Source: Ruminococcus sp. (GTDB lineage Bacteria; Bacillota; Clostridia; Oscillospirales; Ruminococcaceae). Taken from it: a stretch of 14,562 bases of DNA. How positions within the stretch are numbered: position 1 is the stretch's first letter; each line of letters begins with the position of its first letter. Below the pieces are notes generated by a model. The model had not been told where the DNA came from. It searched no databases and saw nothing but the letters and a program-made list of their open reading frames with translations. Location: the NCBI GenBank assembly GCA_017544125.1, contig JAFYET010000297.1:1-14562 (forward strand), written 5' to 3'. Below, in pieces: positions 1,715 through 14,195 of this stretch. A program made the translations under genes and the position numbers.

Positions 1715-2664
1715 GCACCGACAGCTTTACCATACAGCTAAAAAACGCCTCGGGCAGCGTTATATCCATGTTTCAGAGAATAGTATCCCTCACCCTTGTT
1801 AAGGAGCGCTACACACCCTACTTCACCCTTGAATTCACCACCGATGCCATATATCATCAGGGCTTTGACACAAAGGATTTCACCTCGGTCAAGCTGATCT
1901 ACGGGCAGAATGAGCTGTTCTTCGGCAGGGCATCGGGCATCAGCCTTAAATACACAGCGGGCAGAAAGTTGCTCACAGGGCGTGCCTACGGCTATACCAA
2001 GACGGTTGGCACCTGCGATGCCGTGCCGGGGCTCATGAGCAACTGCACCCTTGCCGATATAGCTTCTGCCAACACCTATATGCCGAATGTGAGCTATCAG
2101 CAGATATCAGACAGCGCCAACTACATCTACGTCAAGGAAACAGACACTATCTGGGACGCGATAGCCGCCCTTTCCATAAAGCTCTATGAAGAGTACCCCT
2201 ACATCACGGGCATGAACACGGTAAATATCAAAAAGCAGGGGCAGATACGCCGCACCTATAACTCGGTGAATATAACCGAAACAATAAACGGCAATAATTT
2301 CTCAAACGCCCTCTCACGCATAAATATGCAGGGCACACAGGGCACCTACGAGTATCACTGCGACGATGCCGAGGCGATAAGGCGTGGCATCATGCGTGAG
2401 CGCTATATGCCCCTTGACAGGCAGTGGCTCTCATCGCCCTCGCTGGGGCTTAAGCACAAGCTGTATTTTGCAAGGCGTGGCGGCGTTTACAAGGGCTTCA
2501 CCTACGAGGGCTTCAGAAACGAGAAGCTGTGCGACAAAGTCGAGATAAGTGCCGCCGGGATCGAATATCTGGGCGAGGTATCAAAGCTGATACTCCACGC
2601 CGACAAGCGGGGAGTGTTCACAACGCTTATTTCCTATGATGACGGGTATAGTAGTATTAGTTAA
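1711..2664 (+). CDS. Phage baseplate hub-like protein (gp44/late-control-D type), 317 aa
   Basis: Starts at TTG 1711, 7 nt after GAGGAGG (1697-1703), and overlaps the previous stop. The N-terminus (residues ~1-100) consists of strands typical of hub proteins that describe 'what is attached' (VSLTLVKERYTPYFTLEFTTD, then KLIYGQNELFFGRASGISL). A helical insert follows (TIWDAIAALSIKLYEEYPYI), then a strand-rich C-terminal half (NGNNFSNALSRINM, LYFARRGGVYKGF). Length and layout fit Mu gp44 / XkdQ / gpD baseplate hubs, which cap the tail tube of contractile phages and PBSX-like particles. The stop codon abuts a heptamer repeat, so the 3' end may have been altered by insertion of that element. No sheath, tube or tape-measure gene lies between the capsid gene and this gene. 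Confidence 0.5.
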   Translation: MSTDSFTIQLKNASGSVISMFQRIVSLTLVKERYTPYFTLEFTTDAIYHQGFDTKDFTSVKLIYGQNELFFGRASGISLKYTAGRKLLTGRAYGYTKTVGTCDAVPGLMSNCTLADIASANTYMPNVSYQQISDSANYIYVKETDTIWDAIAALSIKLYEEYPYITGMNTVNIKKQGQIRRTYNSVNITETINGNNFSNALSRINMQGTQGTYEYHCDDAEAIRRGIMRERYMPLDRQWLSSPSLGLKHKLYFARRGGVYKGFTYEGFRNEKLCDKVEISAAGIEYLGEVSKLILHADKRGVFTTLISYDDGYSSIS

Positions 2665-2727
2665 TGCATAATGCATAATGAATAATGCATAATTAAGGAG
2701 TCCGCCTTGCGGCGGACGGATTTTAAA
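2665..2727 (+). repeat. Heptamer/hairpin repeat element, class A copy 1
   Basis: Begins on the base after the hub stop codon. Four 7-bp units TGCATAA, TGCATAA, TGAATAA, TGCATAA (2665-2692), a short link TTAAGGA, a perfect hairpin GTCCGCC-TTGC-GGCGGAC (2700-2717) and the tail GGATTTTAAA (2718-2727). The inverse copy at 9376-9438 differs at only a few positions over the whole length. The hairpin plus TTTT may end transcription of the phage operon. Confidence 0.85.
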
Positions 2728-2745
2728 AAGTACAGTGGCGGGCAG

Positions 2746-4499: not shown

Positions 4500-4576
4500 A
4501 ATGCGACCTCTCGGGCGCAAGCCCCCCACCGCCGCCTGCAGCGGCTTCTTACCTCTTACCTCTCACCTCTTACATC
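4500..4576 (-). repeat. Heptamer/hairpin repeat element, class B copy 2
   Basis: Four 7-bp units TTACCTC, TTACCTC, TCACCTC, TTACATC (4549-4576), then on the minus strand a GC-rich hairpin GCCGC/GCGGC (4531-4535, 4541-4545), a further G/C tract and the palindrome GGGCGCAAGCCC (4513-4524), which recurs at 13844-13855. It follows the surface-protein terminator and runs in that gene's direction. Confidence 0.75.
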
Positions 4577-9318: not shown

Positions 9319-9375
9319 GAATAAAACTATTTTAAGATTTTTTCACAGTTGACCCCTCCGCCGCCGTGCAAGCTG

Positions 9376-9438
9376 TTTAAAATCCGTCCGCCGCAAGGCG
9401 GACACCTCAATTATGCATTATGAATTATGCATTATGCA
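9376..9438 (-). repeat. Heptamer/hairpin repeat element, class A copy 2
   Basis: On the minus strand: four 7-bp units (TGCATAA, TGCATAA, TTCATAA, TGCATAA; 9438-9411), link TTGAGGT, hairpin GTCCGCC-TTGC-GGCGGAC (9403-9386) and tail GGATTTTAAA (9385-9376). It is near-identical to 2665-2727 along its full 63 bp. It lies beyond the esterase terminator in that gene's direction. The ACCCCTCCG motif (9352-9360) lies just past the tail. Confidence 0.88.
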
Positions 9439-9440
9439 TT

Positions 9441-9467
9441 AAAAAAGCCGCCCCTGCGGGCGGCTTT
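9441..9467 (-). terminator. Rho-independent terminator of the CE2-like esterase gene
   Basis: A perfect stem AAAGCCGCCC/GGGCGGCTTT (9444-9453 with 9458-9467, 4-nt loop). On the minus strand it ends in TTTTTT, immediately next to the first heptamer of the repeat. Confidence 0.92.
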
Positions 9468-10834: not shown

Positions 10835-10910
10835 AGGTAACAGGCGTTTATTTAGGTAACAGGTAACAGGTAACAGGTAAGGTGTCGCCCTGCGGGCGAC
10901 GGATTTTAAA
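10835..10910 (+). repeat. Heptamer/hairpin repeat element, class B copy 3
   Basis: Units AGGTAAC x3 and AGGTAAG (10854-10881), preceded by a looser AGGTAAC-AGGCGTT block (10835-10848) that also occurs as CAGGCGTTA at 10821-10829. Hairpin GTCGCCC-TGC-GGGCGAC (10884-10900) and tail GGATTTTAAA (10901-10910). It shares the hairpin-and-tail plan with class A but has different heptamers. Confidence 0.82.
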
Positions 10911-11020
10911 TGTCTTTGGATAGTGAACGTGCTTACGGCGAGCATACGCTTCAAAGACTCTTGGTACGGAACAGGCTTTCCTTTAGCGAACATCGTTCGA
11001 TGACCACGCCCGAATGGGCA
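10911..11020. other. Structured core between two inverted repeat elements
   Basis: This segment carries several inverted pairs: GTCTTTG (from 10912) with CAAAGAC (near 10953), CATCG/CGATG around 10991-11002, and GCCC-GAAT-GGGC at 11009-11019. The 14-mer CGCCCGAATGGGCA (11007-11020) occurs in reverse at 12509-12522. No open reading frame of note. With its flanking inverted copies it looks like one ~250-bp folded or mobile unit. Confidence 0.45.
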
Positions 11021-11085
11021 TCCGTCCGCCGTAAGGCGGACACAATACCTGTTACCTGTTACCTATTCCCTATTACCTATTACCT
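11021..11085 (-). repeat. Heptamer/hairpin repeat element, class B copy 4
   Basis: On the minus strand: units AGGTAAT x2, AGGGAAT, AGGTAAC x2 (11085-11051) plus a partial AGGTAT unit, then hairpin GTCCGCC-TTAC-GGCGGAC (11041-11024) and GGA, after which it diverges from the usual TTTTAAA tail. It faces copy 3 tail-to-tail. Confidence 0.82.
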
Positions 11086-12369: not shown

Positions 12370-12373
12370 GCAA

Positions 12374-12429
12374 TGCATAATGCATAAATGAACGCATTAT
12401 CCGCTTTCAGCGGAAAACGCTGTGCATAA
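12374..12429 (+). repeat. Class A heptamer copy 3 with small hairpin
   Basis: Two TGCATAA units (12374-12387), hairpin CCGCT-TTC-AGCGG (12401-12413), then a further TGCATAA (12423-12429). It starts 5 nt after the cyclase stop, in its direction. The GTCCGCC hairpin and GGATTTTAAA tail are absent; a different hairpin series follows at 12442. Confidence 0.65.
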
Positions 12430-12441
12430 TTATTGTATATT

Positions 12442-12530
12442 GTATTATCCGCTGTGGCGGATAATACGAAAGTTTCGCTTCGCAAAACTTTCCCTTTGGG
12501 CGATGATATGCCCATTCGGGCGATATGGGC
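12442..12530 (+). repeat. Series of three adjacent hairpins ahead of the amidohydrolase
   Basis: Perfect 11-bp stem GTATTATCCGC/GCGGATAATAC (12442-12452, 12457-12467); 8-bp stem GAAAGTTT/AAACTTTC (12468-12475, 12485-12492); and GCCCAT/ATGGGC (12510-12515, 12525-12530), where GGGCGAT occurs twice and allows competing pairings. It ends about 5 nt before the AAAGGA ribosome binding site. ATTATCCGCT is repeated from 12396. It may be repeat-derived debris or a folded leader; no known riboswitch is recognised. Confidence 0.6.
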
Positions 12531-12549: not shown

Positions 12550-13842
12550 ATGATAAGGTTTAAAAACGCACGGATAATGACAATGGCGGGGGAGAAGCCC
12601 TTTGAGGTCAAAGAGGGCGAGGTCTGGACGGATAAGGACAGAATAGCGCTTGTGGGAGCGCCCTCGCAGGAGGAGCTTTCGGCGGCGGAGTTTGAGCGTG
12701 AGGTAGATGCCAAAGGGAATCTCATAATGCCATCGTTCAAAAACGCACACACCCACTCGGCAATGACCTTTCTGCGGTCATATGCTGATGATCTGCCCCT
12801 GCAGGATTGGCTTTTCAACAAGGTATTCCCCTTGGAAGCGAAGCTCACGGGGGAGGACGTTTATTACTTTGCGAAGCTGGCGAACCTTGAATACCTGACA
12901 AGCGGCATTACGGCGAGCTTTGATATGTATTTTGAGCTTGACGACTATGTAAAAGCCTGTACGGAAATGGGCTTTAGATCGGTGTTATGCGGCGCTGTTT
13001 CGGGCGATGAGAGCAATTCTGAGAGGCTGGAGGGAAACTACCTCAAATACAACGGGCTTGACCCGCTGATTACGTTCAGGCTCGGCTTTCACGCTGAATA
13101 CACCTGCGATATTAAGCTGCTTGAACGGATAGGGGCGCTTGCCGAGAAATACAAAGCCCCCGTTTCGACACACAACAGCGAGACGGCAAAGGAAGTACGT
13201 GAGTGCGTTGAAAAATACGGCAAAACGCCCACCGAGCTGTTTGAAAGCCTTGGCATATACAACTACGGCGGTGCGGGCTTCCACTGCGTACACATGAGCG
13301 ACAATGACCTTGACATTTTCAAAAAGCGTGGGGTATGGGCTGTACACAACCCAGGCTCGAACTCAAAGCTCGCAAGCGGCATTGCAGACATTAAGAAAAT
13401 GCAGGATAAGGGCATAGGTCTTGCGCTTGGTACAGACGGCCCTGCAAGCAACAACGCCCTTGATATGTTCAGGGAGATGTATCTGATGTCGGGGCTTTCA
13501 AAGCTGAAAGAGAATGACGCTGCTGCCTGTGATGCAAACTCGGTGCTCTATGCTGCCACCGTCGGCGGTGCAAGGGCTATGGGGCTTAATGATTGCGACA
13601 CATTGGAGGCAGGCAAGCAGGCAGACCTTATAATGATAGACCTTTATCAGCCGAATATGCAGCCCTTCAACAACATAGGCAAAAACATTGTATACAGCGG
13701 CAGCAAGGCAAATGTTATACTTACCATGTGTGCAGGAAAGGTGCTCTACGAAAAGGGCGAATTCCTGACAGCGGACGCTTTTGAGATATACGAGGGTGCG
13801 CAGGAAAGGGCGAAGAGGATACAGGAATCAGTTAACGGGTAA
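12550..13842 (+). CDS. mtaD: Amidohydrolase, 5'-methylthioadenosine/S-adenosylhomocysteine deaminase-like (430 aa)
   Basis: Cytoplasmic metal-dependent deaminase of the MtaD/TrzN/SsnA branch, likely converting MTA, SAH or 5'-deoxyadenosine to the inosine form in purine/SAM salvage. Metal and catalytic positions: HTH at 67-69, H181 (FHAEYTC), HNSE with H208 and E211, HCVHMS at 245-250, and D296 in LGTDGPASNN. A ribosome binding site AAAGGA lies 8 nt before ATG 12550. An in-frame extension to 12433 is rejected because it would translate the hairpin series. The closing segment (LEAGKQADLIMIDL) is the usual composite-domain strand of this fold. Exact substrate is uncertain; guanine or atrazine-type deaminases share the fold. 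The gene ends at a terminator (13919-13957). Confidence 0.85.
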   Translation: MIRFKNARIMTMAGEKPFEVKEGEVWTDKDRIALVGAPSQEELSAAEFEREVDAKGNLIMPSFKNAHTHSAMTFLRSYADDLPLQDWLFNKVFPLEAKLTGEDVYYFAKLANLEYLTSGITASFDMYFELDDYVKACTEMGFRSVLCGAVSGDESNSERLEGNYLKYNGLDPLITFRLGFHAEYTCDIKLLERIGALAEKYKAPVSTHNSETAKEVRECVEKYGKTPTELFESLGIYNYGGAGFHCVHMSDNDLDIFKKRGVWAVHNPGSNSKLASGIADIKKMQDKGIGLALGTDGPASNNALDMFREMYLMSGLSKLKENDAAACDANSVLYAATVGGARAMGLNDCDTLEAGKQADLIMIDLYQPNMQPFNNIGKNIVYSGSKANVILTMCAGKVLYEKGEFLTADAFEIYEGAQERAKRIQESVNG

Positions 13843-13843
13843 C

Positions 13844-13914
13844 GGGCTTGCGCCCTTAATGAATAATGAATAGTGAATAATTGAGGAGTCCGCCTACGGC
13901 GGACGGATTTAAAA
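13844..13914 (+). repeat. Class A heptamer/hairpin element copy 4
   Basis: Begins with GGGCTTGCGCCC (13844-13855), the inverse of 4513-4524; then TGAATAA, TGAATAG, TGAATAA (13860-13880), link TTGAGGA, hairpin GTCCGCC-TAC-GGCGGAC (13888-13904) and tail GGATTTAAAA (13905-13914). It starts 2 nt after the mtaD stop and runs in its direction. Confidence 0.82.
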
Positions 13915-13918
13915 TGAG

Positions 13919-13957
13919 AAACGGCAGTGATCTCGCTTTTGGCGGGGCTGCCGTTTT
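13919..13957 (+). terminator. Rho-independent terminator of the amidohydrolase gene
   Basis: Stem AAACGGCAG/CTGCCGTTTT (13919-13927, 13948-13957), with an inner CTCGC/GCGGG pairing. The T-tract is short (TTTT). It lies just past the repeat element. Confidence 0.78.
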
Positions 13958-14093
13958 ATGCGCTTTGTGGTGGAAGTGAATTATTGCTGCGTGAATAATT
14001 CTTTAACAGCGTATCATAATCACCATATTAAGGGGTTTTTTGCGGGCGTGTATGTGCAAAGTTCTGATTTTTTGCAGGATTTGAAAAAATAAC

Positions 14094-14122
14094 TTGCAAA
14101 ATTCTTTGAAACAGTATAGAAT
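14094..14122 (+). promoter_or_regulatory. Promoter of the aminotransferase gene
   Basis: TTGCAA (14094-14099), a 17-nt spacer and TAGAAT (14117-14122), about 74 nt before the start. Confidence 0.65.
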
Positions 14123-14136
14123 GTCATAGGTGACAT
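14121..14136. promoter_or_regulatory. Palindrome ATGTCA-TAGG-TGACAT at the likely transcription start
   Basis: A perfect 6+4+6 inverted repeat touching the -10 end and spanning the expected +1, suited to an operator for a dimeric repressor or a small leader hairpin. No regulator identified. Confidence 0.4.
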
Positions 14137-14149
14137 GATGAAACAATAA

Positions 14150-14170
14150 TTATGCATTATGAATTATGAA
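14150..14170 (-). repeat. Class A heptamer run without hairpin
   Basis: TTATGCA, TTATGAA, TTATGAA: three units inside the 5' leader of the aminotransferase, 12 nt before GGAGGA. No GTCCGCC hairpin is attached, so it is a bare or eroded copy. Confidence 0.65.
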
Positions 14171-14195
14171 TTGATATGTGGTGGAGGAATTACTT

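Follow-up and report, generated by a model that had tools for sequence, protein, structure and literature searches.

The 63-bp repeat at positions 2665-2727 of the window, the 14,562-nt stretch of Ruminococcus DNA analyzed here, is probably the A end of an undescribed interspersed element that is modular, palindromic, non-autonomous, and moved in trans. The preliminary description had treated the 63 bp as a composite repeat, which is correct, and as the whole unit, which is not, given that the 63 bp form the end module of a larger element. It had missed that whole elements are inverted pairs, that the heptamer varies between copies and species, and that similar elements occur outside the phylum. 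The genome from which the window derives, a 2.4-Mb draft, is referred to below as G000, and the six other genomes of the same genus as G001-G006. The relevant features of the window are the following.

2661-2730, plus strand: single A-type end, from the repeat-arm search and the own-genome blastn search; heptamers at 2662-2693 (TAATGCA twice, TAATGAA, TAATGCA, TAAT), link at 2694-2699, hairpin at 2700-2717, GGATTTTAAA at 2718-2727

4553-4576, minus strand: short TAAGAGG-type array (another heptamer dialect) beside GC-rich palindromic sequence

9373-9442, minus strand: single A-type end, 93% identical to the end at 2661-2730

10839-11085, no strand assigned: full element with both ends, lying between the divergently oriented CE2/GDSL esterase and GGDEF genes; left half with an array at ~10853-10880 (TAACAGG), the A hairpin at 10884-10900, and GGATTTTAAA at 10901-10910; middle with an interior containing hairpins and then the second hairpin (hp2) GCCCGAATGGGC at 11008-11019; right half with the B hairpin at 11024-11041 and an inverted array at 11042-11085

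12371-12522, plus strand: C-type mosaic, related to the element; a hairpin nested among the heptamers, a TTATTGTATATTG link, the hairpin GTATTATCCGC-TGTG-GCGGATAATAC, and then more hairpins

13857-13914, plus strand: single A-type end with TAATGAA/TAGTGAA heptamers, from the own-genome blastn search

14147-14172, minus strand: lone TAATTCA/TAATGCA heptamer array without the A/B hairpin

The order of parts reported earlier is seen in both 63-bp copies (2665-2727, and 9376-9438 on the minus strand), namely four 7-bp units, a TTAAGGA or TTGAGGT link, the hairpin GTCCGCC-TTGC-GGCGGAC, and GGATTTTAAA. The two repeat arms, at 2661-2730 and 9373-9442, are 93% complementary over 70 nt, and the 9376-9438 copy was recovered by the 63-bp query in the own-genome blastn search with an E value of 8.4e-24. 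These two copies had been listed correctly; the features at 10839-11085, 12371-12522, 13857-13914, and 14147-14172 were absent from that finding. The two-ended element at 10839-11085 carries TAACAGG arrays on either side, unlike the heptamer of the 63-bp copies. Parts of the 12371-12522 repeat are found at 86-94% identity at other sites in G000, and this region is another interspersed repeat; it has hairpins of its own and also one nested within a heptamer array. The TAA at 2662-2664, inside the array of the first end, serves as the stop codon of the ORF at 1711-2664. The segment at 1-2664 is prophage-like: its ORF at 113-490 matches the major head protein family phrog_3922, and its final ORF terminates within the first heptamer of the element. 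No Rfam family matched the window at the gathering score.

The overall architecture of the whole element is a heptamer array, a link, and a hairpin, followed by a variable interior and then by a hairpin, a link, and an inverted array. Among the 107 neighboring pairs of ends in the stretches read, 44 face inward, 23 face outward, and 40 point in the same direction (matches below 13 bits were ignored in the pairing counts and in later computations). Four of the inward pairs abut or overlap, 27 are 25-109 bp apart, nine are 227-479 bp apart, and four are separated by more than 2 kb; the minimum spacing of the outward pairs is 256 bp. At distances below 250 bp there are 32 inward pairs, no outward pairs, and seven same-direction pairs. 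From this inward pairing it follows that the unit is a two-ended element, with some clustering. The inverted ends are ~55 bp long and share a TTRAGGTG-like link consensus. In the A end the hairpin is followed by GGATTTTAAA, and in the B end by a second hairpin of the GCCCATTCGGGC type. Several of the variable interiors carry a CCCCGAGG-type hairpin and then a run of T's, which by eye is a terminator, and the longer elements of G005 contain several additional palindromes there. Recurring palindromes such as GGGGGGCTTTCCGGTCGCCCCCC characterize the long G005 elements, those with interiors of 227-479 bp (L096, L140, L153, L154, and L155), which are possibly a separate family. When folded as RNA the 10839-11085 element has a z-score of -8.26, and the copy in the atp operon, folded as DNA, has one of -11.79 with its two arrays paired with each other. 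Single ends also occur, as at 13857-13914, and ends lacking a recognizable array account for 10/75 in the G000 stretches, 4/72 in those of G005, and 24/104 in those of G006.

The repeat had been proposed beforehand to be one of many copies of a small interspersed element of this lineage in which tandem heptamers are joined to a hairpin, with a genome-wide copy count as the test. A blastn search of G000 with the 63-bp query gave at least 59 matches (best 40 of 154 candidates scored). A covariance model trained on 57 copies of the link, hairpin, and tail located at least 146 ends in G000 (149 candidates scored). In the other genomes, with no more than 149 scored candidates apiece, it located at least 144 ends (G006), 116 (G003), 116 (G005), 90 (G001), 26 (G004), and 25 (G002). 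Only a few copies in the genome, or no recurrence in relatives, had been named as the contrary outcome; neither is seen, because the copy number is high, far above chance, and all six of the six other genus genomes examined contain matches. With the same model, one of 18 genomes from other genera of the family was positive (G021), as were four of 16 from other families of the order (21 matches in G037 and one in each of the three others). A wider draw of the order gave at least 13 positives in 197 genomes, G000 included, at a stricter E value and with 31 candidates scored per genome. The element is, then, abundant within one Ruminococcus genus and patchy across the order. Densities of copies are biased upward, because many of the stretches were picked for holding copies. 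The 57-row alignment (A1) left out profile matches below 33 bits, identical segments, five copies missed by the link pattern, and four C-type rows, and had the window end at 10869-10916 added. One copy (G005:C1:1896-1963) lies on the smaller of the two G005 contigs, possibly a plasmid. Plasmid and phage records yielded no match spanning most of the query.

Pairing in the hairpin stem is well preserved. Standard pairs occupy 91.6% of the stem cells in the 57 copies, versus 70.7% after shuffling, and the stem covariation score is 0.457, versus 0.152 for shuffled and at most 0.094 for slid alignments; none of 500 shuffles reached either observed value, with the proviso that both controls leave the kinship among the copies in place. 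Two of the five covariation measures were unremarkable, namely pairs with two-sided changes (61/500 shuffles as high) and further pair types (127/500). The stem exists in a handful of versions altered on both sides, and thus pairing appears to outweigh sequence.

Among tandem arrays, a period of 7 is the only one that stands out. The 190 kb of G000 analyzed contained 51 such arrays, in stretches largely picked for holding copies, and the 380 kb of G005 contained 20, in 19 stretches of which 18 were evenly spaced and one was chosen. For G000, periods of 4-6, 8-11, and 13 gave none, 12 gave one, and 14 (twice seven) gave 33; across G000 and G005, each period of 4-6 and 8-13 gave 0-2 arrays, and single-base shuffles gave none. 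The exact TAATKMA array pattern, in which one four-unit array counts as two matches, occurs 162 times in G000 (reversed control 0), 116 times in G006, 54 in G005, 14 in G003 (control 2), and 9 in G041; it was not found in G001, G002, G004, G021, or G037. On chromosome C2 of G005 these exact arrays are not evenly spread, clustering at ~0.84-0.91, 2.39-2.76, and 3.08-3.22 Mb. The heptamers form dialects: mainly TAATGCA in G000 and G006, with CAATGCA also in G006; TAATGCA, TAACAGG/T, and TAGTGAA in G005; CAATGCA and TAATAGG in G001; and CAATGCA, TAATTAA, and TAATGAA in G003. One type of link and hairpin is found after arrays of several different heptamers.

Many bacterial genomes contain heptamer repeats in excess (PMC4679880, PMC4692102), and it might be supposed that ordinary slippage-made repeats here simply adjoin ordinary terminator hairpins, the two being unrelated. 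Both the lone array at 14147-14172 and the ends without a recognizable array would fit such a supposition. It is nevertheless hardly credible: the same link and hairpin follow several different heptamers, the ends pair inward, and the copies align through array, link, hairpin, and tail, a fixed order across many copies that contradicts it. Both arms of an element share one dialect in 47/63 cases versus 43.2 expected (within-genome permutation, 125/2000 as high; 83 element pairs less the 20 in which an arm scored below 16 of 21). The agreement is thus not clearly beyond composition, and the arms are not clearly kept complementary; the idea that they co-evolve to preserve a stem was set aside as not significant.

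Orthologous sites in related species are filled, damaged, or empty; in the comparison of such sites that had been suggested, both filled and empty ones are found between species. The atpG-atpD spacer contains a nearly identical full element in G000 and G005, has lost the A half in G006, holds diverged versions with other dialects in G001-G003, and measures ~20 nt in G004. At the flank-matched sites of G000, the profile finds no end at 9/20 in G006 and at 5/12 in G005, and some of these retain short remnants by eye. For the 9373-9442 site, G006 has no end by profile and a short hairpin with TATGCATC, perhaps a remnant, and G005 has a larger mosaic. At the position of 13857-13914, G001, G002, G004, G005, and G006 carry an open frame of 134-139 codons after the amidohydrolase gene; G000 has no frame longer than 53 codons at 13842-14130, but fragments of its relatives' 134-139-codon sequence lie beside the element. 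The counterpart of 10839-11085 in G006 is an element with a short TAACAGG array on the left, a single TAATGCA unit on the right, and both ends of B type. The two elements differ in the type of both arms, so that a separate insertion and an exchange of arms are equally likely.

One element has been inverted in place. The stretch at 10577-10800 of L114 aligns in the opposite orientation with G006 over 145 bp at 90% identity, the first 95 nt being identical, between collinear flanks (85% and 88%), and the inversion ends at the loops of both end hairpins within ~3 nt. Because the inverted stretch is more identical than its flanks, recent exchange or reinsertion is possible. A second inversion, suggested by marker order (L106 versus L162), was rejected when the uninverted global alignment proved better (151/221 versus 118/224). 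In the comparison of L126 (9551-9790) with L171, the A end and the second hairpin of the B end are the same, and the end hairpin and outer heptamer differ. Rewriting of the heptamers alone was considered for this pair; the end hairpin changed along with them, so that whole-arm exchange is the better reading, and this one clean case suggests that such exchange occurs. At 3872-4071 of L157 (G005), compared with L156 (G006), the same intrinsic terminator lies on both sides of a three-ended cluster and is single in the empty site.

Elements of this kind might instead be classical MITEs, deletion derivatives of an insertion sequence with a DDE transposase, these terminal inverted repeats, and short target duplications. 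The inverted ends of ~55 bp, the small size, the mostly intergenic location, and the high copy number agree with that description, and terminal inverted repeats are indeed present. Target duplications are not seen, however: the longest direct repeat common to the flanks averages 5.17 nt versus 5.16 nt for shuffled flanks in the 82 elements flanked on each side by 40 nt or more. (Of L155 and L157, which have 4.5 kb in common, L157 does not enter the spacer, dialect, and gene-edge counts and is included in this test and in the site comparison.) Furthermore, in the four inward pairs more than 2 kb apart, one of which is the 2665-2727/9376-9438 pair, no gene-carrying element or transposase was recognized, and by reading they enclose apparently ordinary chromosomal genes. 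A MITE origin is consequently rated distinctly improbable. That the element moves, by an enzyme and through a single-strand step, is something we infer, because one genome was compared per species and target duplication is absent; the species differences could in part be losses.

By simple ORF calling, 218/250 ends lie outside called ORFs and 32/250 inside. Array edges are in excess at gene 3' ends. They lie within 6 nt of a 3' end or overlap it in 23/36 cases in G000 (14.3 expected), 42/55 in G006 (23.9), and 8/30 in G005 (4.1), the expectations being those of uniform placement. At gene 5' ends, which are rough because gene calling simply took the longest ORF, the corresponding counts are 7/23 (4.6), 7/33 (7.0), and 2/17 (2.4). 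In several cases the stop codon is the TAA of the array, as in the ORF ending at 2664. Spacers with elements divide into tandem, convergent, and divergent as 23/11/6 in G000, 25/10/4 in G005, and 34/17/8 in G006; for spacers without elements (gap of at least 30) the numbers are 51/10/15, 166/48/57, and 81/19/28. Stop codons in all frames were considered as the general reason for TAANNNN heptamers, an idea that fails for CAATGCA, which is common in G001 and G003, although they may explain tolerance at gene ends.

The abutment of arrays on stop codons beyond uniform placement could also mean that the repeats are not mobile at all, being functional 3'-end signals (a frame-independent translation stop plus hairpins) that are selected and were multiplied by duplication. 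Consistent with this, two orthologous spacer pairs that carry the same element show higher identity than the sequence on either side (223/237, 94%, versus 90/83%; and 249/262, 95%, versus 91/89%), but a third pair shows lower identity (212/250, 85%, versus 89/88%). Further points against it are that copies are also located in tandem and divergent spacers, including one inside the atp operon, that orthologous sites are empty in relatives, and that CAATGCA arrays no longer supply the stops. We regard this explanation as unlikely.

The search for a mobilizing enzyme centered on Y1 genes, IS200-like by size, which are present in four of the seven genus genomes; G001-G003 gave no match, but these genomes are incomplete. 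Five of the eight genus Y1 loci were checked, and no arrays, ends, or link motif were found near them. Three of four Bacteroidales Y1 loci have one or two link-like 8-mers, without an array. An IS200/RAYT enzyme as mobilizer was set aside as unlikely: Y1 genes exist, and no ends lie beside the five of eight genus loci checked. BIMEs consist of inverted pairs of hairpin units and also occur as singles, and their stems vary with pairing kept. Inverted doublets are likewise found here (44/107 neighboring pairs inward). Were the element a REPIN or BIME proper, mobilized by a RAYT (REP-associated tyrosine transposase), its paired inverted hairpin units and singles, its stem covariation, and its lack of target duplication would all be accounted for. 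Yet in the 57-row alignment the stem is preceded by an AAGGTG-like link and followed by GGAT, and the hairpin foot has no GTAG or CGTC tag of REP/REPIN sequences, and the Y1 loci checked lack ends. Long tandem-repeat arms outside the hairpins are foreign to the family as excerpts of PMC3733652 and PMC3116915 present it. Such membership is quite unlikely, even though the inverted pairs of hairpin units, the singles, and the stem variation with pairing kept resemble the REPINs and REPs of the same excerpts (PMC3116915, PMC3733652).

Related sequences extend beyond the order. A pattern scan of a species-genome collection gave 26 loci in Ruminococcus and Ruminiclostridium MAGs, in R. flavefaciens ATCC 19208, and in two Bacteroidales MAGs, one of them labeled as yak rumen. 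TAATKMA array matches number 159 in the Bacteroidales genome G042 (reversed control 3) and 20 in G043 (control 0). SusD matches number 13 in G042, nine in G043, and none in G000, and contigs C41 and C118 of G042 carry both SusD and the element, so that bin contamination does not explain the Bacteroidales copies. The Bacteroidales element is a compact palindrome about a TTAGGCGTCCGCCGGATGGC-like core. Because the likeness of this core was partly imposed by the search pattern, its common descent with the Ruminococcus element is no more than possible. Scans of viral contigs with four patterns gave 1, 4, 0, and 2 stretches. An IMG/VR phage contig of 35.8 kb encodes terminase, portal, protease, and head proteins and contains four single ends between genes, with heptamer arrays and the hairpin separating several of the head genes, and three of the four have a TAACAGT-type array ahead of a TAGTGAA-type one; a second IMG/VR contig repeats part of it, with two sites in common (stretches L236, L237, and L238). 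The L239 prophage contig and the prophage of the window have a head-protein family in common, as well as a protein at 64% identity, and L239 has a two-ended element at the prophage edge, between the phage genes and a host-like gene. A broader and quite tentative idea, which we would not favor, is that a single system spreads horizontally across Bacillota, Bacteroidota, and phages, the heptamer arms being dialect cassettes that can be swapped while the hairpin core is conserved, and a hairpin-recognizing activity moving, inverting, and shuffling the modules at the loops.

Among known systems, the element is closest to BIMEs, BOX elements, and REPINs, and is best read as a modular element of that general kind, not described before and equipped with heptamer arms; it works like them and shows the defining features of none of them in full. 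No description of it was found among the literature matches listed, chiefly open-access. A MITE containing a minisatellite has reportedly been described in Porphyromonas gingivalis (PMC4596501); it too is a small element combining inverted ends with a tandem repeat, whereas the repeat there reportedly lies inside the MITE and the Ruminococcus arrays form the outer arms. The BOX elements of Streptococcus pneumoniae, in the parts of PMC3049150 available, are modular, with fixed ends, a variable middle, predicted stem-loops, lengths of 67-637 bp, and 125 copies in the genome studied, and are reported to cause target duplications. The likeness is architectural only and by description (a modular composite, fixed ends, a variable middle, and stem-loop folding); heptamer arms are not among the BOX features given there, and no target duplication is seen in the Ruminococcus element. 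The heptamers belong to the broad TAANNNN class, whose well-described example, as far as the available text of PMC4679880 goes, is TAACTGA. Direct repeats of TAACTGA are reported there for Beggiatoaceae, Cyanobacteria, and Bacteroidetes with no evident transmission mechanism; in the main genome studied they lie mostly just upstream of start codons, related heptamers are rarely repeated, and no particular RNA structure is predicted. As in that class, the units here are over-represented TAANNNN tandem 7-mers that are mostly intergenic, patchy across phyla, and a source of stops in three frames in the forward reading. Unlike the TAACTGA repeats of that text, the Ruminococcus element has several dialects joined to a hairpin module and an excess at gene 3' ends.

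If the element is mobilized in trans, as we favor, its arms would pair in single-stranded DNA or RNA, and copies would arise through an activity that recognizes the hairpin more than the hairpin sequence. Candidates for this activity are single-strand transposition of the HUH type and template switching at hairpins, and insertion would leave no target duplication. Copies would persist mainly after stop codons because, as we propose, most dialects stop all frames and the 3' ends of mRNAs tolerate hairpins or benefit from them, a host role there being plausible. Points against this proposal are the CAATGCA dialect and G005, where only 8/30 arrays abut the stop. Seen as the arms of a modular element whose sites can be filled, empty, or inverted in related species, the heptamer repeats yield a concrete unit. 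The testable question is what moves a hairpin element that duplicates no target and has no transposase linked to it. The elements add structured sequence downstream of many stop codons, including within the ATP synthase operon.
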